Positions 21,265 through 64,000 of a stretch of DNA of 64,000 nucleotides are shown piece by piece. Source of the stretch: Pseudooceanicola lipolyticus. GTDB taxonomy: Bacteria; Pseudomonadota; Alphaproteobacteria; Rhodobacterales; Rhodobacteraceae. Below the pieces are notes generated by a model. That model saw only the letters and a program-made list of their open reading frames with translations, had not been told where the DNA came from and made no database searches. The DNA lies in NCBI RefSeq assembly GCF_002786325.1, contig NZ_PGTB01000002.1:62001-126000 (forward strand). The letters run 5' to 3'. The translations under genes were made by a program, and so were the position numbers. Each line of letters opens with the position of its first letter. The first letter of the stretch is position 1.

Positions 21265-22098
21265 TTATGTTAATTTACAGACTCCGCCATCTTGTACCGC
21301 CCGCGACTCAGACAACAGCTTCTCCAGATGCGCCGCAACGTTTCGTCCTGCGGCCATTGCGATATGTGGGTCGGTTTTCTGGTAGACGGAAGCGGCGATA
21401 TTCTGGACCGAATCCGGGGTGTTTGAGAGGTGGGCGAGGATCTCCGCCTCGCGACGCATGCGGTTGGAAAGCAACCGTTTGACGTAAGGTTGCGGATCCC
21501 GGAGTATAGGTCCGTGCCCCGGAAAGTAGATCCTATCGTCGCGCTCAATCAGCCGCTGTAGCTGCGCGCAGTAGTCGTGCATGTTTCCGTCAGGGGGGCT
21601 GACGATCGAACTGTTCCAACTCATAACGTGGTCGCCCGTGAAGAGCACTCCGTCAGGTCTCGCGAAACAAAGGTGGTCGCTCGCGTGACCAGGTGTGTGC
21701 AGGACGGTAAGACCGGCAATGACCTGTCCGTCCTCCAGAAACCGGTCAGGTCGAAATGCATCGTCAGGGAATGCCCGTGAGGCATAAACAGGTGCGTCTG
21801 TCCGTGCTCGCAGGGCTGGGACGACTCCAAAATGATCAGAATGGTGGTGTGTGAGCAGAATCCCAGATGGTTTGGCCCCCAAATTTTCGATGATTGCCCC
21901 GAAATGTGTACTGTCTTCTGCTGGGCCGGGGTCGATTATGAACCGACCATCAGGCGTATCAATGATGTAGCTATTTGTCCCGTGGTAGGTCATCTTTCCG
22001 GGATTGTTCGCGACGATCCTCAGAATTCCAGGGGCCAATTCGACTCCCTTCGCGCGGCAAGGCTTCGGCTCTGAGAAAAACATGCTGCTTCTTTTCAT
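21265..22098 (-). CDS. MBL-fold metallohydrolase
   Basis: A 277-aa protein with the metallo-beta-lactamase signature THHHSDHFG, a second metal ligand in HTPGHASDH, and TGDHV with the bridging Asp. Start ATG 22098 (MKRSS). The set resembles LACTB2/glyoxalase-II-type hydrolases that act on thioesters or RNA, so a CoA- or glutathione-thioester hydrolase is plausible beside acyl-CoA genes. It has its own hairpin terminator, and a terminator separates it from bioY, so it is a single-gene unit at the island border. Confidence 0.75.
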   Translation of the reverse strand: MKRSSMFFSEPKPCRAKGVELAPGILRIVANNPGKMTYHGTNSYIIDTPDGRFIIDPGPAEDSTHFGAIIENLGAKPSGILLTHHHSDHFGVVPALRARTDAPVYASRAFPDDAFRPDRFLEDGQVIAGLTVLHTPGHASDHLCFARPDGVLFTGDHVMSWNSSIVSPPDGNMHDYCAQLQRLIERDDRIYFPGHGPILRDPQPYVKRLLSNRMRREAEILAHLSNTPDSVQNIAASVYQKTDPHIAMAAGRNVAAHLEKLLSESRAVQDGGVCKLT

Positions 22099-22235
22099 TG
22101 TGTGCGACCAGGTATTGATTGCGAACAATTTGGTTCGCACAGTTTTGCGCATTGCTCTCGCATGGCGCCGGAAACCTCAGGCTGGCGTCCGATGCCTGTC
22201 AAATCCGGCATCGGACTATTTCAACTTACATTGGA

Positions 22236-22276
22236 CCAAGCCCGTATGAGACTGAAACAGTCTGATACGGTCTTGG
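22236..22276 (-). terminator. Hairpin terminator after bioY
   Basis: Eighteen-base arms at 22236-22253 and 22259-22276 pair with two mismatches around the loop GAAAC, nine bases after the bioY stop on the minus strand. Confidence 0.6.
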
Positions 22277-22284
22277 GCTGGCAG

Positions 22285-22851
22285 TCACACAGCGCGGCGA
22301 TTATGGTAAGCAGTATACAGAACTACAGCAATTGTCGCCTTCGTCAGATCCCCGAGAAGGAACGGGTAAAGACCGGCGTTCAGCAACTTTTCGCCATAGC
22401 CGACAAAGCCACCCAACCAGAGCAGCCCTGCGCAATACATGACTATCGAACCCAAAAAGACCGCGACAGATGCTCTGAACGCAGGCCGAAGTCCTTGCAG
22501 TGCTTGAACAATCCACCCGGCGGCGGCCGCCGCAAGTGCGAAGCCTACCAAGTATCCGCCTGTGGGACCCGCAATATACGCCGGTCCGGCCAGAGCCGGA
22601 GGCGTGCCTGCGAAGACCGGCAGGCCAAGCAGACCTTCAAAAAGGTATGTCACAACAACAAGACTACTGCGCACCGGCCCCAGGAAAAGGCCCAGACCCA
22701 AGACAACCAGGGTTTGTGTAGACATGGGAACCGGGTAGAACGGCACCACGATTTTGGCGGATAGTGTCAGAAGAATTGTGCCGACGAGAATTATCGAGAT
22801 CTCTTGGGTAAGTTTTGCGAGTGTTTGGCTTTGAGTGGTTTCCAGATTCAT
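22285..22851 (-). CDS. bioY: Biotin transporter BioY
   Basis: A 188-aa membrane protein with about six hydrophobic segments and BioY motifs: VPFYPVPMSTQTLVVLG, YLFEGLLGLPVFAG and AGPTGGYLVGFALA. BioY is the S-component for biotin uptake and works with or without an ECF energising module; none is visible here. It lies 48 bases after the acyl-CoA dehydrogenase gene, at the end of a carboxylase operon, which suggests that biotin uptake is expressed with the biotin-dependent carboxylases. Confidence 0.9.
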   Translation of the reverse strand: MNLETTQSQTLAKLTQEISIILVGTILLTLSAKIVVPFYPVPMSTQTLVVLGLGLFLGPVRSSLVVVTYLFEGLLGLPVFAGTPPALAGPAYIAGPTGGYLVGFALAAAAAGWIVQALQGLRPAFRASVAVFLGSIVMYCAGLLWLGGFVGYGEKLLNAGLYPFLLGDLTKATIAVVLYTAYHNRRAV

Positions 22852-22899: not shown

Positions 22900-24066
22900 T
22901 CACATGCGCTTGGCGACTTCTTCCAACATGACTTCGCTCGCCCCGCCGCCGATGGCCTGCACACGGGCATCGCGTGACATGCGTTCCACCGGTGTTTCGC
23001 GCATATAACCCATACCGCCGTGAAACTGGACGCAGTCATAAAGCACGCTGTTCACCAGTTCGCCGCAATAGGCTTTGACCATCGAGACCTCTTTCACGCA
23101 GTCACCGCCCGCGGCATCCAGACCGGCGGCGTGATAGACCAGCTGACGTCCTGCAGCGATCCGCGTCTGACAGTCGGCCAGCCGTTGGCGCACGGCCTGC
23201 TTGTCCCACAGAACGCCGCCAAAGGCCCTGCGCTGCTTGACATAATCCACGGTCATGTCCAGCGCGGTTTGCGCTTCGGCACAGGCCATCGCACCCAGCA
23301 CAATGCGTTCGTTCTGGAAGTTCTTCATTACCGAATAGAAACCGCGGTTGACCTCGCCCAAGACGTTTTCGGCCGGGATACGGACATCTTCGAAGATCAG
23401 TTCGGCAGTGTCCGAGCACAGCCAGCCGGTCTTGTTCAACGCCCGTCCGACCGAAAAGCCCGTCGTGCCTTTTTCGACCGCAAATATGGTGATCCCGCGC
23501 GACCCCTTGGCATCGGGATCGGTCTTGGCACCGACAAAGTAGAGATCGCCATGCACGCCGTTGGTGATGAACATCTTGGTGCCGTTCAGCACCCAATCCG
23601 ACCCGTCCCGCACCGCGCGGGAGCGCATGCCCGCCACGTCCGAGCCCGCGCCCGGTTCGGTCACAGCAACGGCGGTGATCATTTCGCCCGAGACGATCGA
23701 CGGCATCCAGCGCGCCTTCTGTTCGGGCGTGCCGGCGTTTTCCAGATGCGGCGAGGCCATGTCGGTGTGGACCAGAACGGTGGCCGAGAACCCGCCGAAA
23801 GTGGATCGCCCGACCTCTTCGGCCAAAACCACGCTGGACATCACGTCCAGCCCCGCGCCGCCATACTGTTCGTCATAGCGCATCCCCAGCACGCCGAGAT
23901 CACCCATTCGGCGCAGCACGTCGCGGGGTACCTTGCCCTCCTCCTCCCAAGGCTCGGCCTTGGCGGTCACCTCGGCTTCAATGAACCGGCGCAACTGGTT
24001 GCGGATCATCTCGAGGTCTTCGTTGAACGGGCCGGTGACCTGAGTAATGCTGTCTTGTCTGGTCAT
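22900..24066 (-). CDS. Acyl-CoA dehydrogenase (isovaleryl/citronellyl-CoA-type)
   Basis: A 388-aa FAD enzyme forming the alpha,beta double bond. Present are AVTEPGAGSDVAGM (FAD/substrate loop), the middle beta domain and the C-terminal helical domain. The usual catalytic Glu of the YEGTS loop is absent (IGGGASEV). Instead NFQNERIVLG offers a Glu at the helix-G position used by isovaleryl-CoA dehydrogenase. ATG 24066 overlaps the stop of the carboxylase alpha gene. The neighbours (carboxylase, hydratase) match the order of leucine-type degradation operons. Confidence 0.88.
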   Translation of the reverse strand: MTRQDSITQVTGPFNEDLEMIRNQLRRFIEAEVTAKAEPWEEEGKVPRDVLRRMGDLGVLGMRYDEQYGGAGLDVMSSVVLAEEVGRSTFGGFSATVLVHTDMASPHLENAGTPEQKARWMPSIVSGEMITAVAVTEPGAGSDVAGMRSRAVRDGSDWVLNGTKMFITNGVHGDLYFVGAKTDPDAKGSRGITIFAVEKGTTGFSVGRALNKTGWLCSDTAELIFEDVRIPAENVLGEVNRGFYSVMKNFQNERIVLGAMACAEAQTALDMTVDYVKQRRAFGGVLWDKQAVRQRLADCQTRIAAGRQLVYHAAGLDAAGGDCVKEVSMVKAYCGELVNSVLYDCVQFHGGMGYMRETPVERMSRDARVQAIGGGASEVMLEEVAKRM

Positions 24067-26066
24067 GTGTTTTCCTCTGGATCGAGTTTGATAAGTGGGG
24101 CGTGCCCGGCGACCGTATCGCCGGGTGCACAATAGATTTCAGTCACCACGCCCGCGACCGGCGCGGGCAGGCTTTGCAACAGCTTCATGGCCTCAAGCAC
24201 CACCAGCGTGTCACCGGCTTTGACGCGGTCGCCGAGTGCGACGCGCACCTCGGCCACGGCGCCGGGCATGGGTGCGGACAACAGGTCAGCGACGCCAGAC
24301 CCGCCGGTGGCACGTTGCAGATGCTGGTCTTCCAGCGTACGCAGGTCTGTCGCGGTCATTCCAGCAGGGGTTTGCAGGTGCACTCGCCAGTGACTCGGCG
24401 CGCGCACGACGTAAGCGATGCGCGAAAACGGAACCCCGTCGATGCGTCCGCTCAGACGGCATCCTGTTAAAGCGGCACTCTCGACCGTGATGGTCTGGCC
24501 GTCCGGTTGAATGGCAGTCAACCCCGACCCGGAGCCGTACATGCGGATCGGTTCGTCTTTGGTTGTGTCCCAATAGAAGGCCGCGCCGGACTGTCCCGCA
24601 GGGGCTGTGAGTCGCCATGACCCTAGGCTTTCCCAGGGCGACGCGCCCGCCGGCACGAGACGCAGATGCAGCGCCATCGCGGCAAAGGCCATGTCCCGGG
24701 GATCAGCGGACGGTTCAGTCCAGCCGCCTGGAAACATCTCGGGCAGGCCCGAGGTATGGTGACGGAACGCCGCAAAATCCGGGTGTGCCAGTAACGCGCG
24801 TTGATAGGCCAGGTTCAGGCCGACGCCGCCGACGGCAAAAGCATCGATCGCGGTGATCGCCCGGCGGATCGCCCCGGTCCGATCCGGCGCGTGGACGATC
24901 AGCTTGGCAATCATGGAATCGTAGTGGTGGCCGACGACCGAACCGCACTCTACCCCAGTGTCCAGCCGCACATCCGCAGGCGGCGCCCAAAGGGTGATCT
25001 CGCCCGTTTCGGGGTGAAAATTCTCGGCCGGGTTTTCGGCGGCGATGCGGATTTCAATGGCGTGCCCGTCAAACTGCACATCGCCTTGCGTCAGCGCCAG
25101 CGGCTCGCCCCGCGCGATGCGCAACTGCCATTCGACCAGATCGATGCCGGTGATCGCCTCGGTCACGGGGTGTTCCACCTGCAACCGGGTATTCATTTCC
25201 AGAAAGTAGTATTCACCGCGCCCGGGGTCATAGAGGTATTCCACCGTTCCGGCGGAGCGATAGCCGATCGCCTGCGCCAACCGCACCGCTGCCGCACGCA
25301 TGCGGTCGCGCACAGCCTCGGGAAGATCGGCGGCGGGGGCTTCTTCGATCAGCTTTTGGTGGTTGCGTTGCAGCGAACAATCGCGGTCGCCCAGATGCAG
25401 CACGGTGCCGTGAGTGTCGCCCAGAACCTGCACTTCGACGTGGCGGGCACGGGGCGCATAGCGTTCGAGGAACACCGCCGGATCGCCGAAGGCGCTCTGC
25501 GCTTCGGCCCGGGCAGATGCAATCGCTTCGGGTGCGTCGCCCAGATCGGAGACAAGCCGCATCCCGCGTCCGCCGCCGCCGGTGCTGGCCTTGACCAGAA
25601 AGGGGGTGCCAAGCGCCTCGGCCTCTTGTAGCAGGCGCGCGTCGGACTGATCCTCGCCGCGATAGCCGGGCAGGACGGGCACGCCTGCGGCTTCGGCGGC
25701 AGCCTTGGCCTCGATCTTGGAGCCCATCCGCGCGATAGCGTCGGGTTCCGGCCCGATGAACACAAGGCCCGCCGCCTCGACCGCCGCCGCGAAACCGGCA
25801 TTCTCAGACAGAAAACCATATCCCGGGTGCACCGCACCCGCGCCCGTCGCCCGCGCGGCCTCAAGGATGGCCTCGACGTTCAAATAACTGTCTGACGGGG
25901 CGGCCCCACCGATGCAGACGGCATGATCGGCCTCGGCCACGAAGGGCGCGTCGCGGTCCGCGTCCGAAAACACCGCTACGCTTTCCAGCCCCAGTTTGCG
26001 GCACCCGCGCTGGATGCGCCGGGCAATCTCGCCCCGGTTGGCGATCAGAACGCGGGTGAAGCTCAT
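24063..26066 (-). CDS. Acyl-CoA carboxylase alpha subunit (MCC/PCC-like)
   Basis: A 667-aa biotin protein. The N-terminal biotin carboxylase domain starts RVLIANRGEIARRI and has the ATP-grasp loop GGGGRGMR and the MNTRLQVEHPVTE motif. The C-terminal biotin carrier domain has EAMKL, with Lys628 as the biotin site. It makes carboxybiotin for the beta subunit at 26867. ATG 26066 overlaps the hydratase stop (ATGA). The single-chain form contrasts with the split alpha subunit at 33906-35878. Confidence 0.93.
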   Translation of the reverse strand: MSFTRVLIANRGEIARRIQRGCRKLGLESVAVFSDADRDAPFVAEADHAVCIGGAAPSDSYLNVEAILEAARATGAGAVHPGYGFLSENAGFAAAVEAAGLVFIGPEPDAIARMGSKIEAKAAAEAAGVPVLPGYRGEDQSDARLLQEAEALGTPFLVKASTGGGGRGMRLVSDLGDAPEAIASARAEAQSAFGDPAVFLERYAPRARHVEVQVLGDTHGTVLHLGDRDCSLQRNHQKLIEEAPAADLPEAVRDRMRAAAVRLAQAIGYRSAGTVEYLYDPGRGEYYFLEMNTRLQVEHPVTEAITGIDLVEWQLRIARGEPLALTQGDVQFDGHAIEIRIAAENPAENFHPETGEITLWAPPADVRLDTGVECGSVVGHHYDSMIAKLIVHAPDRTGAIRRAITAIDAFAVGGVGLNLAYQRALLAHPDFAAFRHHTSGLPEMFPGGWTEPSADPRDMAFAAMALHLRLVPAGASPWESLGSWRLTAPAGQSGAAFYWDTTKDEPIRMYGSGSGLTAIQPDGQTITVESAALTGCRLSGRIDGVPFSRIAYVVRAPSHWRVHLQTPAGMTATDLRTLEDQHLQRATGGSGVADLLSAPMPGAVAEVRVALGDRVKAGDTLVVLEAMKLLQSLPAPVAGVVTEIYCAPGDTVAGHAPLIKLDPEENT

Positions 26067-26857
26067 TTCACCCGCCATGACGGAACGCCCTTGTTGATGA
26101 AGCTGTTGATGCCTTCGATACCTTCCTCCGTCTCCCACGCATCGGCCAGCCGGTCGGCGGTGTAGATCATGTTGGTCTCCAGATCGTGGGACGCGACATA
26201 GGCGATCAGCGCCTTGGTATCGGCCACGGCACCCGGCGCGGCCTGAAGGTGATCATGCACCACCCGGTTCACCGTGGCGTCCAAGTCGCCCGGCGCGACA
26301 ACCTCGGTCAACAGACCGATCCGCTCGGCGCGGGCCGTGTCGAACAACGCCCCCGACAGCATGGTTTCACGCGAATGCACCCTGCCGATGCGGGCCACCA
26401 CATAAGGCGATATATTCGCGGGCAGAAGGCCCAGTTTGACCTCGGTCAGACCGAAGCGCGCGCCTTCGGCGCCGATGGTGTAGTCGCAGACGGAGATCAT
26501 GCCGACACCGCCACCGTAGGCCGGGCCGTTGATCCGCCCGATCAAGGGCTTGGGCAGCGTGTCAAGGCGGCGCAACAGCCGCGCCAGCGTGGCGCTTTGT
26601 GCGACCCTTTCACTACGGGTTTTCTCGACATTAGAGGCGAACCAGTTGAAATCGCCGCCCGCGCAGAAGCTCTTGCCCGCGCCGGTCAGGACCACAATAC
26701 GCACATCGTCATCTGCAGCCAGCTTTTCGGCGGCATCGTATAGCTCTGCGATCAATTCGCCATTCAGCGCATTGTGTTTGTCGGGGCGGTTGAGCGTCAG
26801 CCTGGCGACGCCACGCGCATCGGTTTCGATAAGGATCGTGTTGTAGGTATTGGTCAA
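26063..26857 (-). CDS. Enoyl-CoA hydratase (methylglutaconyl-CoA-hydratase-like)
   Basis: A 264-aa crotonase-family protein with the oxyanion-hole motifs AGKSFCAGGDFNWF and NGPAYGGGVGMISVCDY. Placed between carboxylase beta and alpha genes, as liuC is in liu operons, it probably hydrates the carboxylated enoyl-CoA. The acid/base glutamate at the second catalytic position is seen as FGLTEVKLGLLP. Substrate size cannot be read from the sequence; isohexenylglutaconyl-CoA is an alternative. Confidence 0.85.
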   Translation of the reverse strand: MTNTYNTILIETDARGVARLTLNRPDKHNALNGELIAELYDAAEKLAADDDVRIVVLTGAGKSFCAGGDFNWFASNVEKTRSERVAQSATLARLLRRLDTLPKPLIGRINGPAYGGGVGMISVCDYTIGAEGARFGLTEVKLGLLPANISPYVVARIGRVHSRETMLSGALFDTARAERIGLLTEVVAPGDLDATVNRVVHDHLQAAPGAVADTKALIAYVASHDLETNMIYTADRLADAWETEEGIEGINSFINKGVPSWRVK

Positions 26858-26866: not shown

Positions 26867-28465
26867 TCACATTCTGAATACAGGCGTATGGCGACCGGCT
26901 TCGGGCACCGATGTCACGATGGCCAGACACAGGCCAAGGATATCGCGGGTTTGCGCGGGTTCGATCAGCCCGTCATCCCAAAGCCGCGAGGTGGCATAAT
27001 AGGCATCGGACTGTTCACCGTACTGGGCCCGAACCTGCTCCTCGATTAGCTTCATGTCGGCCTCCATCTTGCCCGGGTCGCCCCCTTTCTGGCGGCGCAG
27101 TTCCAGCATCACATTTGTGGCGATGTCGGCAGACATGGTGGCCAGTTCCGCCGTGGGCCAGGCGAAGAGAAAATTCGGGGCGAAACCACGTCCGCACATG
27201 CCGTAGTTGCCTGCCCCGTATGAGCCGCCCAAGAGGACCGACAGGCGCGGCACCTTGGCAACCGACATGGCATAGACCAGCTTGGCGCTGTCTTTGGCAA
27301 TGCCGCCGCGCTCGGCTTCGGTGCCGACCATGAAGCCCGAGATGTTGTGGAGGAACAAAAGCGGGATGTTGCGTTGATCGCACATCGACACGAATTGCGC
27401 GCCCTTGAGCGAACTGTCGGACACAAGCGCCCCATTATTTGCGAGAATGCCCACTCGATAGCCGTGAATCCGCGCGGTGCCGCAGACCAGCGTCTCACCC
27501 CATCCGGGCTTGAATTCGCGGAATTCGCCGGCGTCGATCATGCGCAGCAGAACCTCGCGCATGTCATAGGGCTGTTTGCGATCGGCGCTGATGACGCCAA
27601 GCAGTTCCTCTGGGTTGCGCGCCGGCGGCGCGCAGGTTGCATCGGGACCCATCGGGCGCGACAGGCCCAGTTCGGATACGATGTCGCGCATCAGAGCAAG
27701 CGCATGATACTCGTCCTCGGCCAGATGGTCAGACACACCGGAGACGCGCGAATGCATCTCGGCCCCCCCCAATGTTTCTCCATCAACCTCTTCGTTGATC
27801 GCCACCTTGACGATCGAGGGGCCGCCCAGATGGATGCGTGCGTTGCCGCGTACCATGATGACTTCGTCCGACAGGGCCGGGATATAGGCCCCACCGGCCG
27901 TGCAGCCTCCAAAGACCGCCGAGATCTGCGGCAGGCCGCTCGCGGACATGTTGGTTTGACGATAAAAGGAATTGCCGAAATGGCGGGCATCGGGGAAAAC
28001 CCGGTCCTGCTCTGGCAGATAGGCACCGCCGCAATCCACCAGATAGAGGCAGGGCAGCCGGTTCTCGGCTGCGATTTCCTGGGCGCGGATGTGTTTCTGC
28101 ACGGTTTCGTGATAGAAAGACCCACCCTTCACTGTCGCATCGTTGGCGATCACAACGCAGGGCAGCCCGTGGACGATCCCGATACCGGTCACGATCCCCG
28201 CACCGGGCACCTCGCCCCCGTATTGACCGTAGGCGGCAAGCGACGACAGCTCAAGAAACGCAGTGCCCGGATCCACCAGCAGGTCGATCCGTTCGCGGAC
28301 CAACAGCTTGCTGCGCTTGCGATGCCGCGCGACCATATCGGGGCGGCCGCCAGCCGTTGCTTCGGCGATCCGCGCGCGCAGCGTTTCGACGCGCTCGCTT
28401 AGTGCGGCGTGGTTGCGGGTGTAGGTCTCTGATGCGGTCGGCACCGCTGTTTCAAGACGTGCCAT
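26867..28465 (-). CDS. Acyl-CoA carboxylase beta subunit (MCC-like carboxyltransferase)
   Basis: A 532-aa carboxyltransferase. The N domain has GGSFYHETVQKHIRAQEIA and FGGCTAGGAYIPALSDE, and the C domain has LLGGSYGAGNYGMCGR. These motifs bind acyl-CoA and carboxybiotin, with oxyanion holes in the glycine-rich turns. The protein is closest in style to 3-methylcrotonyl-CoA carboxylase beta. ATG 28465 follows the TetR stop by four bases, so regulator and carboxylase share a transcript. Confidence 0.92.
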   Translation of the reverse strand: MARLETAVPTASETYTRNHAALSERVETLRARIAEATAGGRPDMVARHRKRSKLLVRERIDLLVDPGTAFLELSSLAAYGQYGGEVPGAGIVTGIGIVHGLPCVVIANDATVKGGSFYHETVQKHIRAQEIAAENRLPCLYLVDCGGAYLPEQDRVFPDARHFGNSFYRQTNMSASGLPQISAVFGGCTAGGAYIPALSDEVIMVRGNARIHLGGPSIVKVAINEEVDGETLGGAEMHSRVSGVSDHLAEDEYHALALMRDIVSELGLSRPMGPDATCAPPARNPEELLGVISADRKQPYDMREVLLRMIDAGEFREFKPGWGETLVCGTARIHGYRVGILANNGALVSDSSLKGAQFVSMCDQRNIPLLFLHNISGFMVGTEAERGGIAKDSAKLVYAMSVAKVPRLSVLLGGSYGAGNYGMCGRGFAPNFLFAWPTAELATMSADIATNVMLELRRQKGGDPGKMEADMKLIEEQVRAQYGEQSDAYYATSRLWDDGLIEPAQTRDILGLCLAIVTSVPEAGRHTPVFRM

Positions 28466-28469: not shown

Positions 28470-29099
28470 TCAGGTATCCTGTCTTTGGAGTATCCCGTTG
28501 AGGAACACATCGGCATAGGTGCGTGACAACGCATCGGCGCTACCGCGGTCCGGGTCGAACCAATCGAGCGTGGCGTTCAATGTACCGATCAGCATCAGGC
28601 GCAGGCGACGGATATCGACGTCTTGCTTCAGCGTGCCGTCTTTCTTAAGCTGGGACAGAAGACTGTCCCACTCTGCCTCATAGGCCCTTCGCGTAGGCAA
28701 GTTGGCATCCCGGACGGATTGCGGCACCTGCCCGAAAATACGCACATTCGCCGATGTATAATCGCTCACATCAAGAAGTGCGCGCAGATGCGCCCGGATC
28801 GCGGCGCGCAGTACCGTTTCGCCGTCGGTATCGGCCCGCAGGTCGGTGATGGCGTCTCTCATACTCGCGTGAACGACCCGAATCCCTGCATCAAGAACGG
28901 CCGCGACGATCTCGTCCTTGGAACCGAAATGATAGTATATGCTACCCGCCTTGATCCCGGCGGCCTCGGCAATTTTTCGGAGCGAAACGGACCCGTAGCC
29001 TTGTTCGCGGAAAAGCCGCGCGGCAATGTCCAGCACCCCGTCCCGTCCGACCGCGCTGCGCGATGTCTCGTTGACTTTGCTTGCAGTGCTTTGTGCCAT
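28470..29099 (-). CDS. TetR-family regulator of the island
   Basis: A 209-aa repressor. The N-terminal HTH covers about 20-66 (VSLRKIAEAAGIKAGSIYYHF). The ligand domain has SDYTSANVRIFGQV and TLDWFDPDR, closely matching both halves of the fused TetR-TetR protein at 43596 (SDFTSANIR, SEFTSANIR, TVEWFDPNK). A palindrome-like site lies 28 bases before its start (29127-29140), so it probably represses itself and the downstream carboxylase genes, with an acyl-CoA as inducer (inference). Confidence 0.9.
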   Translation of the reverse strand: MAQSTASKVNETSRSAVGRDGVLDIAARLFREQGYGSVSLRKIAEAAGIKAGSIYYHFGSKDEIVAAVLDAGIRVVHASMRDAITDLRADTDGETVLRAAIRAHLRALLDVSDYTSANVRIFGQVPQSVRDANLPTRRAYEAEWDSLLSQLKKDGTLKQDVDIRRLRLMLIGTLNATLDWFDPDRGSADALSRTYADVFLNGILQRQDT

Positions 29100-44960: not shown

Positions 44961-45006
44961 TCCATTTCGATACTTGCGGGACACGAGACTGTCCATTGCA
45001 ATAAAT

Positions 45007-45020: not shown

Positions 45021-45087
45021 AATAACGCAAGGAACGTTCCGAATCAAGTTCTTTGCCAAGATGATAGCGGAAGAGGAGGACCTCCAT

Positions 45088-52760: not shown

Positions 52761-52792
52761 GATGCCAATGCATCGACATATGGGATCATATC

Positions 52793-55938: not shown

Positions 55939-57972
55939 TCAGAGATCCTGCGCCAGGCGCACGCCCTCATCAATGGCGCGCAGCGCATCCAGTTCGGCGG
56001 CCTCCTTTGCCCCGCCGATCATCGTAACCGGGACGCCGCGCGCTACAACCTCTTTGGCCAGGGCTCGTTCCGGTTCCTGACCGGTGCACAGCACAATTGT
56101 ATCGGCTGCGATGACCGTCGGGTTTCCGTCCGCGACGATGTGCAGCCCCGCATCGTCGATATGTTCATAGGTCACCCCGCCCATTGCCTCGACCCCATGT
56201 TTGCGCAGCGCGTTGCGCAGGATCCACCCTGTCGAAACACCAAGCCCCGCGCCCGGTTTAGCGGTCTTGCGCTGCAGCATGACGACCTTGCGGCGCGACG
56301 GCTTCGGTGCCAGAGGGTCGCCCGCCAGGGCACCCGAGGAGACAAATTCGGGGTCCACACCCCAGGTTTCGCAAAAGACGTCGGAATTCGCGGTCTCGGC
56401 GGGTTTGGTCACTAGGAACTCGGCCACATCATGACCGATGCCCCCCGCCCCCATCACCACGACACGGTCGCCCGCCTCGCGGTCACCGGACAGAATTTCG
56501 GCGTAGGTCGCGACGCTGGGATGGTCGATACCCGGCAGGTCGGGAATGCGCGGCGTGACCCCGGTGGCGATGACCACATGGTCAAATCCCTCAAGATCGC
56601 TCGCCTCTGCCCGCTGTCCCAGACGCTGCGTGACCCCGTGTTTCTGCATCTGACCGGCATAATACCGCAGGGTTTCGTCGAATTCGTCCTTGCCTGGTGC
56701 GGCGCGGGCCAGATTCAGCTGACCGCCCAATTTGTCCTGCGCTTCGAACAGGGTGACATCGTGGCCCAGCCGCGCCGCCTCGGCGGCTGTGGCCATGCCC
56801 GCGGCACCACCGCCAACGACGGCCACTTTCTTTGGCGTGTCGGTTGGCGTATCCCGGAATTCCGTTTCACGCCCGGCCCTTGGATTGACCAGACATCCGA
56901 CCGGCCGGTCCGAAAAAATGAAATCCAGGCAGGCCTGGTTGCAGGCAATGCAGGTGTTGATCTCGTCTGCGCGGCCCTCGCGCGTCTTTTTCACGAAATG
57001 CGGATCGGCCAGAAACGGGCGCGCCATCGAGATCATGTCCGCATCGCCAGAGGCAAGTATGTCTTCTGCAAGCTGGGGTGTGTTGATCCGGTTCGAGGCG
57101 ACTACCGGGATCGACACCGCCGCTTTGACGTTGGCTGCCGCCTTGCGCCAGGCACCGCGCGGCACCGGGTAGGCGATCGTCGGCACGCGGGCCTCATGCC
57201 AGCCGATGCCGGTGTTCAGGATATCCGCACCCGCAGCCTCGATCTTGCGGGCCAGTGCGGCAATTTCATCGGCGGGCGCGCCGCCCTCGACCAGATCGGC
57301 CGCCGAAATCCGGTAGATGACCAGAAAGTCGGGGCCGCAACGTTCGCGCACCGCGCGCACGATCTCGACCGGGAATCGGTGGCGGTTCGCGGCGCTGCCG
57401 CCCCAGTCGTCTTGGCGCTTGTTGGTGTGGGTGACGGTGAATTCGTTGATCAGGTATCCTTCGGACCCCATGATCTCGACGCCATCAAAGCCTGCGGCCT
57501 GCGCATTGGCGGCCGCCACGGCAAAATCCTCGATGGTACGGAGAATGTCGGCTTCGGTCATTTCACGCGGGATGAAACGGTTGATCGGAGCGCGGATCGG
57601 CGACGGGGCCACACACCCTTCGATCTTGGCATAGCGTCCGGCGTGGAGGAGTTGTGCGCAGATCAGGCTGCCTTCGGCCTGCACCGCCTCGCAGATCGGG
57701 CGCAGGTCAAGCGCTTCTTCCGGGTCATCGATTCTCGGACCTTCTGGATCGAATATGCCCTCGGCATTGGGCGAAAACCCGCCGGTGACCAGAATCGCCG
57801 CCTCCCCCCGCGCACGCTCGGCGTAAAATGCGATCTGTTTGGCTATGCCGTCGGGCTCGGTTTCCAACCGCGTGTGCATCGACCCCATGATGACACGATT
57901 TCGCAACGTATGCTGGCCTGCGCGGATGGGCGAGAGCATGGTTTCAAAGCTTCCATCTGGTCTATTTTTCAC
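55939..57972 (-). CDS. FMN/FAD/4Fe-4S oxidoreductase, 2,4-dienoyl-CoA-reductase-like
   Basis: A 677-aa three-part flavoenzyme: an OYE-type TIM barrel with FMN (residues 1-340, GSMHTRLETEPDG, ICAQLLHAGRYA), a 4Fe-4S site CIACNQACLDF with a later Cys in GCLVNP, then FAD/NAD domains (VAVVGGGAAGMATAAEAARL). It resembles FadH, which reduces 2,4-dienoyl-CoAs formed from unsaturated chains. Starting at GTG 57972 is favoured by the adjacent GGAGGAGAACCAAA; ATG 57939 is internal. It diverges from an acyl-CoA dehydrogenase gene over a shared operator. Confidence 0.9.
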   Translation of the reverse strand: MKNRPDGSFETMLSPIRAGQHTLRNRVIMGSMHTRLETEPDGIAKQIAFYAERARGEAAILVTGGFSPNAEGIFDPEGPRIDDPEEALDLRPICEAVQAEGSLICAQLLHAGRYAKIEGCVAPSPIRAPINRFIPREMTEADILRTIEDFAVAAANAQAAGFDGVEIMGSEGYLINEFTVTHTNKRQDDWGGSAANRHRFPVEIVRAVRERCGPDFLVIYRISAADLVEGGAPADEIAALARKIEAAGADILNTGIGWHEARVPTIAYPVPRGAWRKAAANVKAAVSIPVVASNRINTPQLAEDILASGDADMISMARPFLADPHFVKKTREGRADEINTCIACNQACLDFIFSDRPVGCLVNPRAGRETEFRDTPTDTPKKVAVVGGGAAGMATAAEAARLGHDVTLFEAQDKLGGQLNLARAAPGKDEFDETLRYYAGQMQKHGVTQRLGQRAEASDLEGFDHVVIATGVTPRIPDLPGIDHPSVATYAEILSGDREAGDRVVVMGAGGIGHDVAEFLVTKPAETANSDVFCETWGVDPEFVSSGALAGDPLAPKPSRRKVVMLQRKTAKPGAGLGVSTGWILRNALRKHGVEAMGGVTYEHIDDAGLHIVADGNPTVIAADTIVLCTGQEPERALAKEVVARGVPVTMIGGAKEAAELDALRAIDEGVRLAQDL

Positions 57973-58067: not shown

Positions 58068-59249
58068 ATGCAATTCCAGCCTACAGACGATCAGAAGGCG
58101 TTTCGCGAGACCGCAAAGCGCTTCGCAACTGAAAGGCTTGCGCCCACATATCAAGAACGCGCCAGCGGCCATACATTCGACCGTGCGCTGATCAAGGAGA
58201 TGGGCGCACTGGGGCTAATCGGGGCCGATCTGCCCGAGGAATTCGGGGGACTCGGCGAAAGCTCTGTCACGTCAGGGCTGATCGTCGAAGAGATCGCCTA
58301 TGCCGATTTCAACGCAAGTTACGTGCAGCTTCTGGGCTCTCTCATGGGCGGAATGGTTGCCAAACATGCCTCCAAGGACATCGCGTCGGAATGGGTGCCC
58401 AAGGTTGTTTCGGGTGATGCGGTCATTGGCTTGGGCCTGACAGAGCCGCGCGGCGGTTCGGATGCGGCGAACCTGATTCTGAGAGCCGAGAAATCCGGCA
58501 ACGGTTGGCGGCTGAACGGTGAAAAGACATCCATGAGTTTTGCCAGTCAGGCGGATGCGGCGGTCGTCTTTGCCCGTACCGGCGATCCTGACGGCGGCTC
58601 ACGCGGGGTCAGCGCCTTTTTCGTCGATCTGAACCAGGGCGGCATCAAGCGCACCCATTTTGACGACATCGGCACCAAGCCTGTCGGGCGCGGGTCGGTG
58701 TTCTTTGACGATGTTTTCGTGCCGGCCGAAAATATGATGGCGGAACAGGACCGTGCCTTTGGCACGATCATGGCAGGCTTCGACTATTCCCGCGCACTGA
58801 TCGGGCTGGAGTGCCTGGGGGCCGCGCAAGCGTCGGTGGATGAAACCTGGGCCTACGTTCAGGAGCGCGAGGCATTCGGAGCTCCGATCGTGCAGTATCA
58901 GGGTGTCAGCTTTCCCCTGGCCGAGGCCGAGACCCAACTGACCATGATGCGCCAGCTTTGCTATTACACGCTGGACCTGCGCGACCGTGGCCTGCCCCAC
59001 ACCTCTCAGGCCGCCATGTGCAAATGGTACCTGCCCAAAACCGCCTGCGAGATCCTGCACCAGTGCCTGATCCTGCACGGACATTACGGCTACACCACCG
59101 ACCTGCCCCACCACCAGCGCTACAACGATGTGCTCGGCCTGCAGATCGGTGACGGCACCGCGCAGATCCAGAAGCTGGTGATCGCCCGCGAGAAGGTCGG
59201 TCGCATGGCGCTGCAGTATGACAAGAAGGCGAAGGGAGCCTCGAAATGA
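58068..59249 (+). CDS. Acyl-CoA dehydrogenase with Asp at the canonical catalytic position
   Basis: A 393-aa FAD enzyme: GLTEPRGGSDAANLIL and LNGEKTSMSFASQAD are recognisable. Where medium- and short-chain enzymes read YEGTS, it reads IGDGTAQIQK, putting Asp in place of the Glu, and the helix-G position reads FDYSRALIG without Glu. Cyclohexanecarboxyl-CoA dehydrogenases are known with Asp, so a ring or hindered acyl-CoA is possible. ATG 58068 has GGGGAGGAG upstream. It overlaps the next gene (ATGA). Confidence 0.88.
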   Translation: MQFQPTDDQKAFRETAKRFATERLAPTYQERASGHTFDRALIKEMGALGLIGADLPEEFGGLGESSVTSGLIVEEIAYADFNASYVQLLGSLMGGMVAKHASKDIASEWVPKVVSGDAVIGLGLTEPRGGSDAANLILRAEKSGNGWRLNGEKTSMSFASQADAAVVFARTGDPDGGSRGVSAFFVDLNQGGIKRTHFDDIGTKPVGRGSVFFDDVFVPAENMMAEQDRAFGTIMAGFDYSRALIGLECLGAAQASVDETWAYVQEREAFGAPIVQYQGVSFPLAEAETQLTMMRQLCYYTLDLRDRGLPHTSQAAMCKWYLPKTACEILHQCLILHGHYGYTTDLPHHQRYNDVLGLQIGDGTAQIQKLVIAREKVGRMALQYDKKAKGASK

Positions 59250-60025
59250 GCGACGCCATCCTCGTCACTTCCGAGGGCAACACCGGCATCATCGAACTGG
59301 CCCGCCCCGAGAAATTCAATTGCCTGTCACTTGACGTGCATGAGCGCATTTCTGCTGCGCGGTCGGAATTCGAGGCGAACCCGGATATTCGGGCGATCCT
59401 GATCCGGGCGCAAGGCAAGAACTTTTGCACCGGCGCCGATCTGGTGGAAGTGAAAGGTAAATTGAACGATCCCGCCGCGCTGGACCATTTCATCGCCTTT
59501 GGCATGAAAAACCTGCGTGCGCTCGAAACCTCCTCCCTCCCTGTCGTAGTCGCAGTGCAGGGGTTGTGTCTGGCCGGCGGGATCGAACTGATGCTGGCCT
59601 GCGACGTGTGCTTTGCGGCCGAAAGCGCCCAGTTTGGCGATCAGCATGCGCAATTCGGGCTGATTCCCGGTTGGGGTGGCTCGCAGCGGCTGACGCGGTT
59701 GATGGGGCAGCGCAGGGCGCTCGACCTGATGTTCTCGGCCCGCTGGCTCAAGTCGGACGAGGCCAAAGAGTCCGGCCTGGTCAACTACATCGTGCCGGAT
59801 GCGGACCTGCACAAGTCTGCGCTGGAATACTGCGAGAAAATCGCCACCCGTTCACGTCCCGGCATCGCCGAGATGAAGCGGTTGGCGCGCGAAGGCGCGG
59901 ACCTTGGTATCGACCAGCAGATGCGGCTTGAGCGCGATGCCGCCGTGCGCGCACTGCCCAGCGATGACGTGGCGGAGGGCCTCGATGCATTCGAGAACCG
60001 GCGCGCCCCCGAATTCAAGGCTTGA
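59246..60025 (+). CDS. Enoyl-CoA hydratase/isomerase family protein
   Basis: A 259-aa crotonase-family protein with GKNFCTGADLVEV and QGLCLAGGIELMLACDV. FGLIPGWGGSQRL keeps the family turn but lacks the Glu of typical hydratases in the first catalytic position (GIELML supplies one). It sits between two acyl-CoA dehydrogenases in one operon. Confidence 0.83.
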   Translation: MSDAILVTSEGNTGIIELARPEKFNCLSLDVHERISAARSEFEANPDIRAILIRAQGKNFCTGADLVEVKGKLNDPAALDHFIAFGMKNLRALETSSLPVVVAVQGLCLAGGIELMLACDVCFAAESAQFGDQHAQFGLIPGWGGSQRLTRLMGQRRALDLMFSARWLKSDEAKESGLVNYIVPDADLHKSALEYCEKIATRSRPGIAEMKRLAREGADLGIDQQMRLERDAAVRALPSDDVAEGLDAFENRRAPEFKA

Positions 60026-60034: not shown

Positions 60035-61195
60035 ATGGATTTCATTTTGAACGACGAACAACGCCAGATTTACGACTATGGCGGCCAGCTGGCGCAGAAG
60101 TTCGACAACGATTACTGGCTGAGACACGCACGCAAGCACGAGTTTCCGCACGAAATGTTCCGCCAGATCGCCGATGACGGCTTCCTCGGCATCATGGTGC
60201 CCGAGGAATATGGCGGCGCGGGCCTTGGTATGACCGAAATGGCCCTGTTCATGGAGGGCACCGCCAATCACGGCATTCCGCTTTTGATGATGGTGGTCGG
60301 GCCGACCATGTCGCTGGCCCATATCGCCAGCCACGGGAGCGAGTTCCACAAGAAAGAACTGCTGCCGGCTGCCTGCCGCGGTGATATCCAGTTCTGTTTC
60401 GCGATCACCGAACCGGGGGCCGGGTCGAACACGATGAAGGCCACTACGCTGGCCAAGCGTCGAGGCAACCGGTTCAGCCTGTCGGGCGAAAAGACCTTCA
60501 TCACCGGGGCCGAAGTGGCCGACTACTGCCTCGTGGTGGCGCGGACCAAACCGCATACCGAGGTCAGCCGCAAGACCGACGGCTTTACCCTGTTCGCCGT
60601 GGATCTGAAGAAAAAAGGCGTCGACAAGCAGCGGGTGAAGATCTCGATCCCCCTGCCCGAGGAGCAGTGGACACTGTTCTTCGACGATGTGGATCTCGGC
60701 CCCGAGGATGTGGTCGGCGAGGTGGACGAAGGGTTCTCGATCCTGTTCGACAGCCTCAACCCCGAGCGTATTATCCTGGCCGCCTTGTGCTGCGGCATCG
60801 GCCGGTTCGCCCTGAACAAGGGCGTGGCCTATGCCTCCGAGCGCAATGTGTTCGGCCAACCCATCGGTGCGCACCAGGGCGTGCAGCATCCGATGGCCAA
60901 GGCGCACACAGCGGTCGAGATGGCCAGTCTGATGACCCGGCGCGCGGCATGGGAGTTCGACAACAAGCTGCCTGCCGGTGCGTCGTCGAACATGGCGAAA
61001 TATGCCGCCGCCGAAGCCGGGATCGAAGCGGTCGACGCGGCGCTTCAGGCGCATGGTGGATCGGGCTTTACCGAGGATACGGGACTTTACGAAATGTACC
61101 CGCTGGTCCGCCTGCTGCGCACAGCGCCGGTGAACCGCGAACTGTGCCTGAGCTTTATCGGCGAAAAGGTCATGGGCCTGCCACGATCCTATTGA
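60035..61195 (+). CDS. Acyl-CoA dehydrogenase lacking the usual catalytic loop
   Basis: A 386-aa FAD enzyme: AITEPGAGSNTMKATTLAKR, LSGEKTFITGAEVAD and SLNPERIILAALCCG, the last offering a helix-G Glu. The YEGTS loop is missing, the corresponding stretch reading VRLLRTAPVNRELC. The fold is otherwise normal (AHGGSGFTED). The Glu in NPERI suggests isovaleryl-CoA-type catalysis on a branched substrate. Confidence 0.87.
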   Translation: MDFILNDEQRQIYDYGGQLAQKFDNDYWLRHARKHEFPHEMFRQIADDGFLGIMVPEEYGGAGLGMTEMALFMEGTANHGIPLLMMVVGPTMSLAHIASHGSEFHKKELLPAACRGDIQFCFAITEPGAGSNTMKATTLAKRRGNRFSLSGEKTFITGAEVADYCLVVARTKPHTEVSRKTDGFTLFAVDLKKKGVDKQRVKISIPLPEEQWTLFFDDVDLGPEDVVGEVDEGFSILFDSLNPERIILAALCCGIGRFALNKGVAYASERNVFGQPIGAHQGVQHPMAKAHTAVEMASLMTRRAAWEFDNKLPAGASSNMAKYAAAEAGIEAVDAALQAHGGSGFTEDTGLYEMYPLVRLLRTAPVNRELCLSFIGEKVMGLPRSY

Positions 61196-61222
61196 TCGCC
61201 ACGGCTTGGAACGGAGAACGAC

Positions 61223-62614
61223 ATGCAATTTGGAATGCGCTTCCGGCGGGAGGATGCCGCCGACAAGGTAAATGATCGCTTCTGGCACGCGATCGAGGGC
61301 ACGCCGCTCGACGAGGTGCACCGTATTCAGGAAGAGCGGCTGCGTGATCAGATGGCCTACCTCAAGGCAAACTCGACCTTTTATCAGGAAAAGTTCGCCG
61401 AGGCCGGTATGGAATTCGACGATATACGCACCATCGAAGACCTGCAGAAGCTACCCTACACTTACAAGACCGAGATCCGCGAAAGCCTGTCCGCCGCGCC
61501 GCCGTTCGGCAAGCACCGCGCCGCGCCGATGGCCGACATCGTCCAGATGCAGGCCTCGTCGGGCACGACCGGCAGCCCCTCATATGTTGCCCTCACCGAA
61601 GCCGACGCCGAGATGTGGCACGAGATGACAGCGCGTTGTTTCTTTGCCAATGGCGTGCGCCCCGGCGACATGGTGCTGCATGCATTTTCGCTGGCCAAGG
61701 GCTTTGTCGGCGGCATTCCGGTGATGCAGGGCCTGCAGTACATGGGCACGATCGATGTGCCAGTGGGAGCGGACGGCGGTGTCGAGCGGCTGCTGCGCGC
61801 CTGCGCCGATACGCGCCCGCGTTGTATCGTCGGCGCTCCGAATTTCGTTCTGCACCTGGCTGAAAAGGCACCAGAAGTGCTGGGATGCAAGGCCAGTGAA
61901 TTGGGCGTGGAACAAGTGGTCGTCGGCGGAGAGCCCGGCGGTGGCATCCCTGCAATTCGCGCAAAGATCGAAGAGGCATGGGGTGCAAAATGCTCTGAAA
62001 TGCTGGGCGGCACCGACTTGGGCGTGACCTATTGGGCCGAATGCGACGCCCAGACGGGGATGCATATGGTCAACATGGATTATATCATCACCGAATTGCT
62101 CGACCCCGAAAGCGGCGCAATCATACCTTGGGAAAAAGGTGCCGAAGGCGAGATGATCTATACCGCCATCGGCCGGCAGGCGAGCCCTCTGGTGCGGTTC
62201 CGGTCAGGTGATTATATCGAGGTCATCGATACCGAATGCTCCTGCGGCCGCACCGGACCGAAGATCCGCTGCACCGGCCGCACCGACGACATGCTGATCG
62301 TGCGCGGGGCCAATGTCTTCCCGTCGGCGATCAACAGCATCATTACCGAAATGGTGCCGGACACCAACGGCGTCATGCGCATCGTGGCCGATTTCGAGGG
62401 CCATACCACGCAGGGCGCGCTGACGGTGATTGTCGAACGGGGCCCCGATCGCGATCCGGCCGATGACGTCACCCTCAAAAAGAAAATTGAGCAGCGGCTT
62501 CGCGACTCCTTGGTCTTCAAGGCCGACGTTCACCTGGTTGCGGCCGACACTTTCGAAAAACCTGGCGCCGCTAAGGTCGCCTTCGTTCTCAGGAAATATC
62601 CAGACCTGCCATGA
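61223..62614 (+). CDS. Phenylacetate-CoA-ligase-family enzyme (PaaK-like)
   Basis: A 463-aa AMP-forming ligase of the PaaK branch: QASSGTTGSPSYVALT (AMP loop), EMLGGTDLGVTYWAEC, a cysteine pair CSCGRTGPKIRC, and GRTDDMLIVRGANVFPSAI. PaaK enzymes activate aryl or acyl acids. It overlaps the carboxylase beta gene (ATGA), so the acid it activates is probably in the same pathway. ATG 61223 is 27 bases after the upstream stop. Confidence 0.88.
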   Translation: MQFGMRFRREDAADKVNDRFWHAIEGTPLDEVHRIQEERLRDQMAYLKANSTFYQEKFAEAGMEFDDIRTIEDLQKLPYTYKTEIRESLSAAPPFGKHRAAPMADIVQMQASSGTTGSPSYVALTEADAEMWHEMTARCFFANGVRPGDMVLHAFSLAKGFVGGIPVMQGLQYMGTIDVPVGADGGVERLLRACADTRPRCIVGAPNFVLHLAEKAPEVLGCKASELGVEQVVVGGEPGGGIPAIRAKIEEAWGAKCSEMLGGTDLGVTYWAECDAQTGMHMVNMDYIITELLDPESGAIIPWEKGAEGEMIYTAIGRQASPLVRFRSGDYIEVIDTECSCGRTGPKIRCTGRTDDMLIVRGANVFPSAINSIITEMVPDTNGVMRIVADFEGHTTQGALTVIVERGPDRDPADDVTLKKKIEQRLRDSLVFKADVHLVAADTFEKPGAAKVAFVLRKYPDLP

Positions 62615-64000
62615 CTAGAATGAAATCCCTTCTCGACAGCGGATCGGACGACTTCCGCGCCAACGACGTGTCTTACCGCGAAAAGGTCGATGAACTACAT
62701 GCCCTCCGGCTCTCACAGCGCGTCGGCGGCCCCGAAATGGCGCGCAAACGTCATGTGGACAAAGGCAAAATCCTGCCGCGCGAACGGATCGAACGGCTGA
62801 TCGACCCGGGCACACCATTTCTGGAACTCGGCGAGTTGGCCGGATTGAATATGCACAAGGGAGTTCCACCCGGCGCCGGCATCATTACCGGTATTGGCGT
62901 GATCGAAGGCCGTCAGTGCATGATCATCGCCAATGATGCCACCGTAAAGGGCGGCACCTATTTCGGGATCACCTGCCGCAAACACGTCCGGGCACAGAAA
63001 ATTGCCTGGAAAAACCGCCTGCCCGTCATCACCCTCGTGGACTCCGGCGGTGCCTTCCTGCCCGACCAGGCCAACCTTTTCCCCGACGAAGGCCAGTTCG
63101 GCTCCATCTTTCACCAACAGATCGGCATGTCTGGCGATGGTGTGCCGCAAATCGCCGTGGTCATGGGGCCCTGCACCGCGGGTGGTGCCTATATCCCCGC
63201 GCTCTGTGACGAAGTGGTGATCGTGCGCGGTCAGGGCTTTATGTATCTGGGCGGACCGGAATTGACCTTTGCCGCAACCGGCGAAAAGGTCGAAGCCGAA
63301 GAACTGGGTGGCGGCAAGATGCATTCGTCCGTCTCCGGTGTGACAGACCATTTGGCCGAAGATGACGCCCACGCTCTGGCCATCACGCGCGAAATTGTCA
63401 GCCATCTTGGCGAAAAACCCCAACCCCGCAAGACGCCCGAAGCGCCCCGTGCGCCCGCCTACCCGGTCGAAGAGATTTATGGACTCATCAGCCGCGACCC
63501 CAAGGTGCCGACCGACAACCGCGAAATCGTGGCTCGGTTGGTCGATGAGAGCGATTTTCACGAATTCAAGCCGCTTTATGGCGACACGATCATGACCGGC
63601 TGGGGGCGCATCCACGGCCACGAGGTCGGGATCATCGCCAATACAGGCGTGCTTTTCGTCGAAGCCGCGCTGAAGGCGACGCATTTCATCAATCTCTGCG
63701 TCCAGCGTGATATTCCGCTGCTGTTCCTGGCCGATGTGAACGGCTTCATGGTGGGCCGCGAGGTCGAGCAGATGGGCATTGCCAAGGCCGGTGCTAAAAT
63801 GATCACGGCCATGTCTTCGGCCCGGGTGCCGAAATTCACAATCATCACCGGTGGCTCTTACGGCGCGGGATACCTGGCGATGCTGGGCCGCCCGTTCCAG
63901 CCGGACGCAATGTTCGCCTGGCCGACGGGACGGTCGGCAATCATGGGGCCGGAACAGGCCGCCAGCGTGCTGGCTCAGGTCCGCGCGCAGATCAACGAAC
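62611..64000 (+). CDS. Acyl-CoA carboxylase beta subunit, third system (cut by the right edge)
   Basis: At least 463 residues of a carboxyltransferase. KGGTYFGITCRKHVRAQKIA, VVMGPCTAGGAYIPALCDE and ITGGSYGAGYLAMLGRPF are intact. The last motif reads GYLAMLGR where the other two beta subunits read GNYGMCGR, so it belongs to a different subgroup. An alpha subunit should follow beyond 64000. ATG 62611 overlaps the ligase stop. The operon (dehydrogenase, hydratase, dehydrogenase, ligase, carboxylase) is under the operator at 58011. Confidence 0.9.
   Translation, partial: MTRMKSLLDSGSDDFRANDVSYREKVDELHALRLSQRVGGPEMARKRHVDKGKILPRERIERLIDPGTPFLELGELAGLNMHKGVPPGAGIITGIGVIEGRQCMIIANDATVKGGTYFGITCRKHVRAQKIAWKNRLPVITLVDSGGAFLPDQANLFPDEGQFGSIFHQQIGMSGDGVPQIAVVMGPCTAGGAYIPALCDEVVIVRGQGFMYLGGPELTFAATGEKVEAEELGGGKMHSSVSGVTDHLAEDDAHALAITREIVSHLGEKPQPRKTPEAPRAPAYPVEEIYGLISRDPKVPTDNREIVARLVDESDFHEFKPLYGDTIMTGWGRIHGHEVGIIANTGVLFVEAALKATHFINLCVQRDIPLLFLADVNGFMVGREVEQMGIAKAGAKMITAMSSARVPKFTIITGGSYGAGYLAMLGRPFQPDAMFAWPTGRSAIMGPEQAASVLAQVRAQINE

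Follow-up and report, generated by a model that had tools for sequence, protein, structure and literature searches.

A plasmid-borne island with three acyl-CoA carboxylases in Pseudooceanicola lipolyticus, a candidate for the degradation of methyl-branched acids

The stretch of DNA analysed here (the window; 64,000 bp) comprises bases 62001-126000 of the 223,177-base contig NZ_PGTB01000002.1 of Pseudooceanicola lipolyticus and contains a catabolic island with three biotin-dependent acyl-CoA carboxylases within approximately 40 kb. All three belong to the gamma-carboxylating lineage of methylcrotonyl-CoA carboxylase (MCC) and geranyl-CoA carboxylase (GCC), and acyl-CoA dehydrogenase and enoyl-CoA hydratase genes lie beside each of them. 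A sequence-only reading of the window had placed three such systems there, each with its own dehydrogenase and hydratase, and family matches identified every one of these genes at those places. Because the genome assembly is a draft (439 contigs, estimated contamination 5.68%), structure was judged mainly from sequenced plasmids; gene ends in the window were set by comparison with annotated relatives. The features are listed below in window positions, numbered on past the right end.

1..18910, both strands: plasmid backbone to the left of the island, with type IV secretion and relaxase genes (match to a Paracoccus plasmid)
21265..22152, minus: MBL-fold metallohydrolase, left edge of the shared unit (PF00753)
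22285..22851, minus: BioY biotin transporter (PF02632, E 4.4e-31)
22900..24066, minus: set 1 acyl-CoA dehydrogenase (best PDB matches 2pg0, 313 bits; long-chain acyl-CoA dehydrogenase, 297; isovaleryl-CoA dehydrogenase, 260)
24063..26066, minus: set 1 carboxylase alpha, biotin carboxylase plus biotinyl domain (family match, EAMKL biotin site)
26063..26857, minus: set 1 enoyl-CoA hydratase (NF005675, 368 bits, cut-off 350)
26867..28465, minus: set 1 carboxylase beta (beta1), Phe at the gate (family match, alignment)
28470..29099, minus: TetR-family regulator (family match)
29280..30110, minus: short-chain dehydrogenase/reductase (SDR), 3-oxoacyl reductase/hydroxyacyl dehydrogenase-like (family match)
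30135..31319, minus: thiolase, lipid-transfer-protein subfamily (NF006102, 691 bits, cut-off 436)
31573..32184, plus: PaaY-like hexapeptide protein (TIGR02287, 291 bits, under the cut-off of 320)
32296..33903, minus: set 2 carboxylase beta (beta2), Gly at the gate (family match, alignment)
33906..34421, minus: set 2 separate biotin carboxyl carrier protein (family match, ESMKL biotin site)
34409..35878, minus: set 2 biotin carboxylase subunit (family match)
35891..37690, minus: AtuA, probable acetate-releasing lyase of set 2 (PF07287 and AtuA ferredoxin-like domain)
37712..38497, minus: set 2 enoyl-CoA hydratase (family match)
38631..39845, plus: set 2 acyl-CoA dehydrogenase, isovaleryl-CoA-dehydrogenase-like (best PDB match 4o5m, an isovaleryl-CoA dehydrogenase, 360 bits; top five all of this kind)
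39859..41058, plus: set 2 second acyl-CoA dehydrogenase (family match, annotated relatives)
41068..41922, plus: SDR, possible dienoyl-CoA reductase or hydroxyacyl dehydrogenase (family match)
41906..42718, plus: set 2 second enoyl-CoA hydratase (family match)
42731..43614, plus: two hotdog thioesterases (family matches)
43596..45422, minus: regulator with two TetR-type stretches in tandem in one chain (longest open reading frame; true start probably internal)
45088..45849, plus: BadH-like SDR, 2-hydroxycyclohexanecarboxyl-CoA dehydrogenase type (TIGR03206, 369 bits, under the cut-off of 431; next family 227)
45963..47900, plus: acyl-CoA synthetase, acetate/acetoacetate-CoA ligase type (family match)
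54392..55912, minus: fatty-acid-CoA-ligase-like protein (family match)
55939..57939, minus: 2,4-dienoyl-CoA reductase-type flavoenzyme (PF00724 and PF07992; same annotation in relatives)
58068..59249, plus: set 3 acyl-CoA dehydrogenase, AliB-like, reading frame open from 57999 (TIGR03207, 524 bits, under the cut-off of 575)
59246..60025, plus: set 3 enoyl-CoA hydratase (family match)
60035..61195, plus: set 3 second acyl-CoA dehydrogenase (family match)
61223..62614, plus: PaaK-like acid-CoA ligase (family match)
62611..64000, continuing to 64218, plus: set 3 carboxylase beta (beta3), Phe at the gate (family match, alignment)
64229-66235, right of the window: set 3 carboxylase alpha, directly after beta3
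ending at 67199, right of the window: hydroxymethylglutaryl-CoA (HMG-CoA)-lyase-like gene, after the set 3 alpha (NF004283, 265 bits, cut-off 246)

Set 3 is completed beyond the right edge. The sequence-only reading held that the third alpha subunit and an HMG-type lyase lay outside the window and should be sought right of 64000, and both are found there, adjacent on the same contig. It was right that no HMG-type lyase lies inside the window, but it missed AtuA, the likely lyase of set 2, which does. Past the HMG-CoA-lyase-like gene are an SDR, a citryl-CoA-lyase-like protein (NF004868, 353 bits, cut-off 193), a dehydrogenase and a MaoC-type protein, followed by a branched-chain-amino-acid-type ATP-binding cassette (ABC) transporter whose genes include a fatty-acid ligase. 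An acyl-CoA lyase of Mycobacterium that is unrelated to the usual one can split HMG-CoA (excerpt of PMC6689899), and given this precedent the citryl-CoA-lyase-like neighbour is a possible alternative lyase. All three carboxylases have a biotin site with the MK motif: EAMKL in alpha1, ESMKL in the separate carrier protein of set 2 and ESMKL in alpha3. The genome has seven PF01039 matches, which we read as five acyl-CoA carboxylase betas and two weak partial accA/accD matches; three of the five betas are on the island, one, similar to propionyl-CoA carboxylase, is on contig C430, and one, similar to MCC, is on contig C423. The acyl-CoA dehydrogenase family has 43 matches in the genome, some of them fragments, of which 21 are on the 223-kb contig of the island.

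The division of acyl-CoA carboxylases that includes MCC and GCC, and that carboxylates the gamma carbon of alpha-beta-unsaturated acids, has been described (excerpt of PMC4673880), and all island betas fall within it. In a tree of 22 beta subunits, which contained no GCC sequence, beta1 is in a supported group (97/100) separate from the MCC group, beta2 groups with other AtuA-linked betas (100/100), and beta3 is solitary on a long branch with an unsure placement. The MCC group consists of the C423 beta and the Pseudomonas aeruginosa and human MCC (support 88/86). Pairwise identities among the island betas are 46.4% (beta1-beta2), 46.8% (beta1-beta3) and 43.7% (beta2-beta3), and each is closer to P. 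aeruginosa and human MCC (49.8-53.2%) than to the other two. Thus the tree proposed by the sequence-only reading returned three divergent carboxylases of one lineage, not one clade with one known pathway. At 68.4% identity to P. aeruginosa MCC, the C423 beta is likely the ordinary MCC of leucine degradation in this genome; a dehydrogenase and a ligase gene adjoin it.

In this lineage the residue at a single position, Phe191 in MCC beta and Gly162 in GCC, determines whether there is room for the larger geranyl-CoA, and swapping it shifts the preference (excerpt of PMC4673880). By count along the chain, residue 191 of human MCC beta is the F of DRDHFGR. The published numbering thus appears to be that of the human chain, which is borne out by a three-residue gap just before the site in a second beta near AtuA in Sulfitobacter sp. 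DFL-14 (L084:7185-9062). In the GCC chain 5ikl the Gly of beta2 is aligned with chain position 161, where the matched stretch begins, one off the published 162. The aligned motifs are DARHFGN in beta1, DRYLGGR in beta2, DEGQFGS in beta3 and DRDHFGR in the C423 beta, so that beta2 has Gly at the MCC Phe191 position, as in GCC, while beta1 and beta3 have Phe, as in MCC. The same pattern runs through the 125 beta rows of the fetched loci, with 64 Gly and six Ala in the AtuA-linked type, 51 Phe in the set 1 type and two Phe in the set 3 type (two partial rows were unreadable). A wide pocket is therefore predicted for set 2 alone. The Sulfitobacter sp. DFL-14 beta has both GCC marks, the Gly and the three-residue gap; like beta2, it scores lower against GCC (437 bits) than against MCC-type chains (532 at best).

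Set 2 also has the probable lyase. Both domains of AtuA are above their cut-offs (PF07287, 483 bits; AtuA ferredoxin-like domain, 96 bits), and its fold matches chain A of the citramalate lyase 9evf over 417 residues at 16-18% identity. The small chain of the lyase, 9evf chain B, gave a weaker match, with a Foldseek E of 1.5e-3, a probability of 1.00 and a target TM-score of 0.68 (no position in the AtuA model is given). Foldseek rows ranking below the two 9evf chains concern individual domains or score low and were disregarded. From the matches to both chains, a single AtuA polypeptide seems to hold the counterparts of the two. AtuA differs from the citramalate lyase of CmlA and a small chain (PDB 9erq, 9evf) in its low identity and in its expected substrate, a CoA thioester; the kinship offers a concrete test of a lyase step that is usually assigned by gene name.

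The contig of the island has genes for plasmid replication and for type IV secretion, and the catabolic unit is best read as horizontally mobile. An RP-C (RepC-family) match of 103 bits lies on the same contig (C219:4260-4676), so that RepC and a type IV secretion system, the two marks used here for a RepABC-type conjugative plasmid, occur together. Positions 1-24000 of the window match the Paracoccus sp. SCSIO 75233 plasmid NZ_CP115758.1 with 95.2% identity and 100% coverage, in a region where type IV secretion B4, relaxase, VirB10 and lytic transglycosylases are annotated, and four plasmids cover at least 80% of this stretch. Fifty plasmid records match the set 2 stretch (32200-50200), and in 13 the match spans 80% or more of the stretch; ten of these 13 have 93.4-97.9% identity and the remaining three 82.4-90.6%. 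All 13 also match the set 1 and set 3 stretches. They come from Sulfitobacter, Marinovum, Paracoccus, Roseovarius, Sagittula, Phaeobacter, Pseudosulfitobacter and, in another order, Roseibium. Hence this genome shares the island with plasmids of several genera in two orders.

In the annotation of three of the 13 plasmids, those of Sulfitobacter alexandrii, Roseovarius indicus (pRIdsm_01) and Roseibium sp. Sym1, which represent Rhodobacterales and Hyphomicrobiales, the genes run in the same order from BioY as far as the set 3 dehydrogenase, except that in Roseibium sets 1 and 2 are separated by a transposase and a group II intron and that a few accessory genes differ; for Sagittula sp. MA-2 p5 the annotation was examined from set 3 into set 2. 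The MBL-fold metallohydrolase adjoins BioY in the R. indicus, S. faviae and S. alexandrii plasmids too, and the genes further left vary: S. alexandrii has secretion genes there, S. faviae has a HipA gene and R. indicus an IS6 element. The differing left neighbours of a constant unit indicate that it has passed from one backbone to another. The AtuA match of Shimia biformata is on a 3.1-Mb contig, suggesting that the unit is sometimes chromosomal or chromosome-linked. Pseudosulfitobacter pseudonitzschiae has many near-identical plasmids, most of them of diatom origin, in which several separate places match parts of the island at approximately 80-84% identity.

The three sets are also inherited together. 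Among 198 genomes drawn from the family, its own included, and with a detection threshold of E 1e-230 or better, beta2 was found in six, beta1 in eight and beta3 in seven, and all six genomes with beta2 also hold beta1 and beta3. A wider survey used AtuA to stand for set 2: the best 80 of 116 confirmed loci were considered and 50 were taken further, in 49 genomes, which were searched for beta1 and beta3. In the 38 genomes with an AtuA at least 79% identical, beta3 is present in 35, beta1 in 37 (34 at 86% identity or more) and both in 35; the remaining three, which lack beta3, are metagenome assemblies. Where a genome has only a distant AtuA (53-60%), which is so in 11, beta3 is never found and beta1 is found in three, at 59-65% identity. 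The record titles of the 35 genomes name 24 genera, including Bradyrhizobium, Enterovirga, Ferrovibrio, Mesorhizobium and Acidocella besides Rhodobacterales. Since beta1 and beta3 lie approximately 165 kb apart on one contig in Bradyrhizobium, retention is not only a matter of close linkage. Sequences copied together are not independent events, and these counts are therefore given without a probability.

Taken together, the evidence leans slightly towards a stretch that degrades, step by step, an acid with several methyl branches, most likely isoprenoid-type and unsaturated. We infer the order of steps, the size preferences, the division of labour and the substrate class as follows. Acyl-CoA ligases would activate the acid. 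At a beta-methyl branch, a dehydrogenase would yield the 3-methyl-2-enoyl-CoA, a carboxylase would add CO2 to the branch methyl, a hydratase would then add water, and a lyase would remove the resulting two-carbon arm, so that ordinary beta-oxidation could resume. Set 2, with its Gly gate, its isovaleryl-CoA-dehydrogenase-like enzyme and AtuA as acetate lyase, would take the larger intermediates, and sets 1 and 3, with their Phe gates, smaller or differently shaped ones; set 3 would employ the neighbouring HMG-CoA-lyase-like or citryl-CoA-lyase-like protein. Alpha- and beta-branched intermediates alternate along an isoprenoid chain; the lipid-transfer-subfamily thiolase (which we take to be of the SCP-x type), the AliB-like dehydrogenase and the BadH-like SDR fit the alpha-branched ones, which would pass through them. 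The 2,4-dienoyl-CoA reductase-type enzyme fits an unsaturated substrate and would deal with the remaining double bonds. The best matches of the set 1 dehydrogenase suggest that it is nearer to long-chain than to isovaleryl-CoA dehydrogenase, and the second-best family of the set 1 hydratase is gamma-carboxygeranoyl-CoA hydratase (213 bits, below its cut-off).

Several observations weigh against this interpretation. The Phe gate in sets 1 and 3 means that three size classes are not supported by the gate residues. The sequence-only reading had proposed the repeated removal of methyl branches of different lengths; the three divergent carboxylases, the Gly gate of beta2, which fits a larger substrate, and the strong co-inheritance support it in part, but the MCC Phe kept by sets 1 and 3 leaves three sizes of branch unsupported. 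Even beta2 has no three-residue gap of the kind typical of GCC, scores 586 bits against human MCC and 419 against GCC over the whole sequence, and has a nearest solved relative other than GCC. The tree lacks GCC, its MCC group is weak, and it carries a long-branch warning for beta3 and between the beta1 and beta2 groups. The HMG-CoA-lyase-like protein departs in the alignment from the human and Pseudomonas lyases, with GPRDG changed to GPREG and ETTSF/EVGSF to QVGSF; we take the altered GPRDG site and the altered Glu ahead of the SFVSP motif (QVGSFVSP here) to be catalytic. The AliB and BadH matches are under their cut-offs, and several regulators (two TetR types, AraC and MarR) suggest separately controlled modules. 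In the annotated plasmid stretches examined no alcohol or hydrocarbon oxidation gene is named, so that they give no clue to the starting compound. It is plausible that methyl branches are removed step by step, with direct support from one set only.

The plasmid could instead be a generalist store of acyl-CoA catabolism, with three sets that serve unrelated branched acids and are kept because they travel together. In S. alexandrii acyl-CoA genes and tripartite ATP-independent periplasmic (TRAP) or ABC transporters extend across most of plasmid positions 50000-187000, and in P. lipolyticus this one contig has 21 of the 43 acyl-CoA dehydrogenase matches and several regulators. Parts of the island also occur elsewhere: the set 1 stretch matches 112 plasmid records, including 110-kb Pseudosulfitobacter plasmids that are not among the set 2 matches listed (the best 40 of 50), and Rhizobium records matching some part number 31 for the set 1 stretch and 26 for the set 3 stretch (counts only). 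However, a mere store does not account well for beta1 and beta3 both being present in 35 of the 38 close-AtuA genomes, even far apart or on different draft contigs, nor for the constant order from BioY to set 3 on three plasmids with different left neighbours, and we regard it as rather unlikely. Mere duplication of the leucine (Liu) route, with no new substrate, is most improbable. All three betas are indeed of the MCC/GCC lineage, and the beta, hydratase, alpha and dehydrogenase of set 1 form a single run, as in Liu genes; however, the MCC-like beta on C423 already has a dehydrogenase and a ligase beside it, and the island betas, at 49.8-53.2% identity to P. aeruginosa and human MCC, appear to group apart. 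Ordinary Liu duplication was rejected on the tree and this separate beta.

A cyclic acid, such as a terpenoid, naphthenic or steroid fragment, is an improbable substrate, although some genes point to it. In that case the AliB-, BadH- and PaaK-like steps would act on the ring and the carboxylases on a methyl-branched side chain or the opened chain. The AliB-like dehydrogenase (524 bits; second-best family 238, next of the genome's 43 matches 234) and the BadH-like enzyme (369 bits) are each far over the next family, and OB-fold-plus-thiolase pairs occur further along the S. alexandrii plasmid. The Castellaniella defragrans island, also a horizontally acquired terpene island, has 2,4-dienoyl reductase, MaoC and BadH/BadK-like genes (excerpt of PMC4109377); it serves cyclic monoterpenes, and according to the same excerpt its genome has no atuC/atuF homologs. 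Other alpha-branched acyl-CoAs would be equally possible substrates of the AliB- and BadH-like enzymes. BadI-type ring opening was rejected, as no BadI ring hydrolase was found genome-wide (best 130 bits, cut-off 468). Plasmid record NZ_CP018081.1 has, at 50000-99999, more acyl-CoA clusters with OB-fold and thiolase pairs, paired dehydrogenases, MaoC and CaiB-type proteins, which we take to resemble steroid side-chain systems.

Returning to the degradation of a methyl-branched acid, the parts of the island are of known kinds, and it is the three together in one mobile unit that are new. Set 2 resembles the Atu pathway of Pseudomonas (atuABCDEFGH, with the geranyl-CoA carboxylase AtuC/AtuF) in having AtuA beside carboxylase, dehydrogenase and hydratase, in the Gly at the substrate gate and in its acetate-lyase logic. 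It differs in having separate biotin carboxylase and carrier genes in place of one alpha, in a beta closer overall to MCC and without the three-residue gap, and in the company of two further carboxylase sets on mobile plasmids. The Liu (leucine/isovalerate) pathway shares with the island the grouping of set 1 genes, the HMG-CoA-lyase-family gene after set 3 and the Phe gate of sets 1 and 3; it differs in identity (approximately 50-55%), in the apparent position of the island betas outside the MCC group and in the changed conserved residues of the lyase, and the likely Liu set is on another contig. No description of such an island was found in the open literature, which is weak evidence of absence since only open papers were covered; the main text of a 2026 paper on Sulfitobacter plasmids (PMC13386836) does not mention terpene, acyl-CoA, carboxylase, catabol-, degradation or alexandrii.

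Isoprenoids, including chlorophyll side chains and terpenes, are a large marine carbon pool. The unit, which moves among mostly marine bacteria, is closely similar in more than 20 genera and is present on plasmids of bacteria from algae, corals and other sources, would be a strong candidate for the degradation of isoprenoid carbon and for the spread of this capacity. It is possible, with the chances against it, that this is a self-contained polyprenoid-acid pathway transferred whole from one order of Alphaproteobacteria to another. Its three dedicated gamma-carboxylases would then be paired with three lyases of different chemistry, namely a putatively nucleotide-binding AtuA that releases acetate, an altered HMG-CoA lyase and a citryl-CoA-lyase-like enzyme recruited to the task, and would remove one methyl branch after another from marine algal isoprenoids.

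Among the accessory genes, the regulator with two TetR-type stretches corresponds to a single TetR gene of 413-455 amino acids in the annotation of relatives (455 in S. alexandrii). Between the set 2 and set 3 parts the island contains an IS256-family transposase (50402-51781), and positions 52266-53928 encode a MarR regulator, a protein called DoxX in relatives and a glutathione transferase, where Roseovarius indicus has a flavodoxin gene instead.

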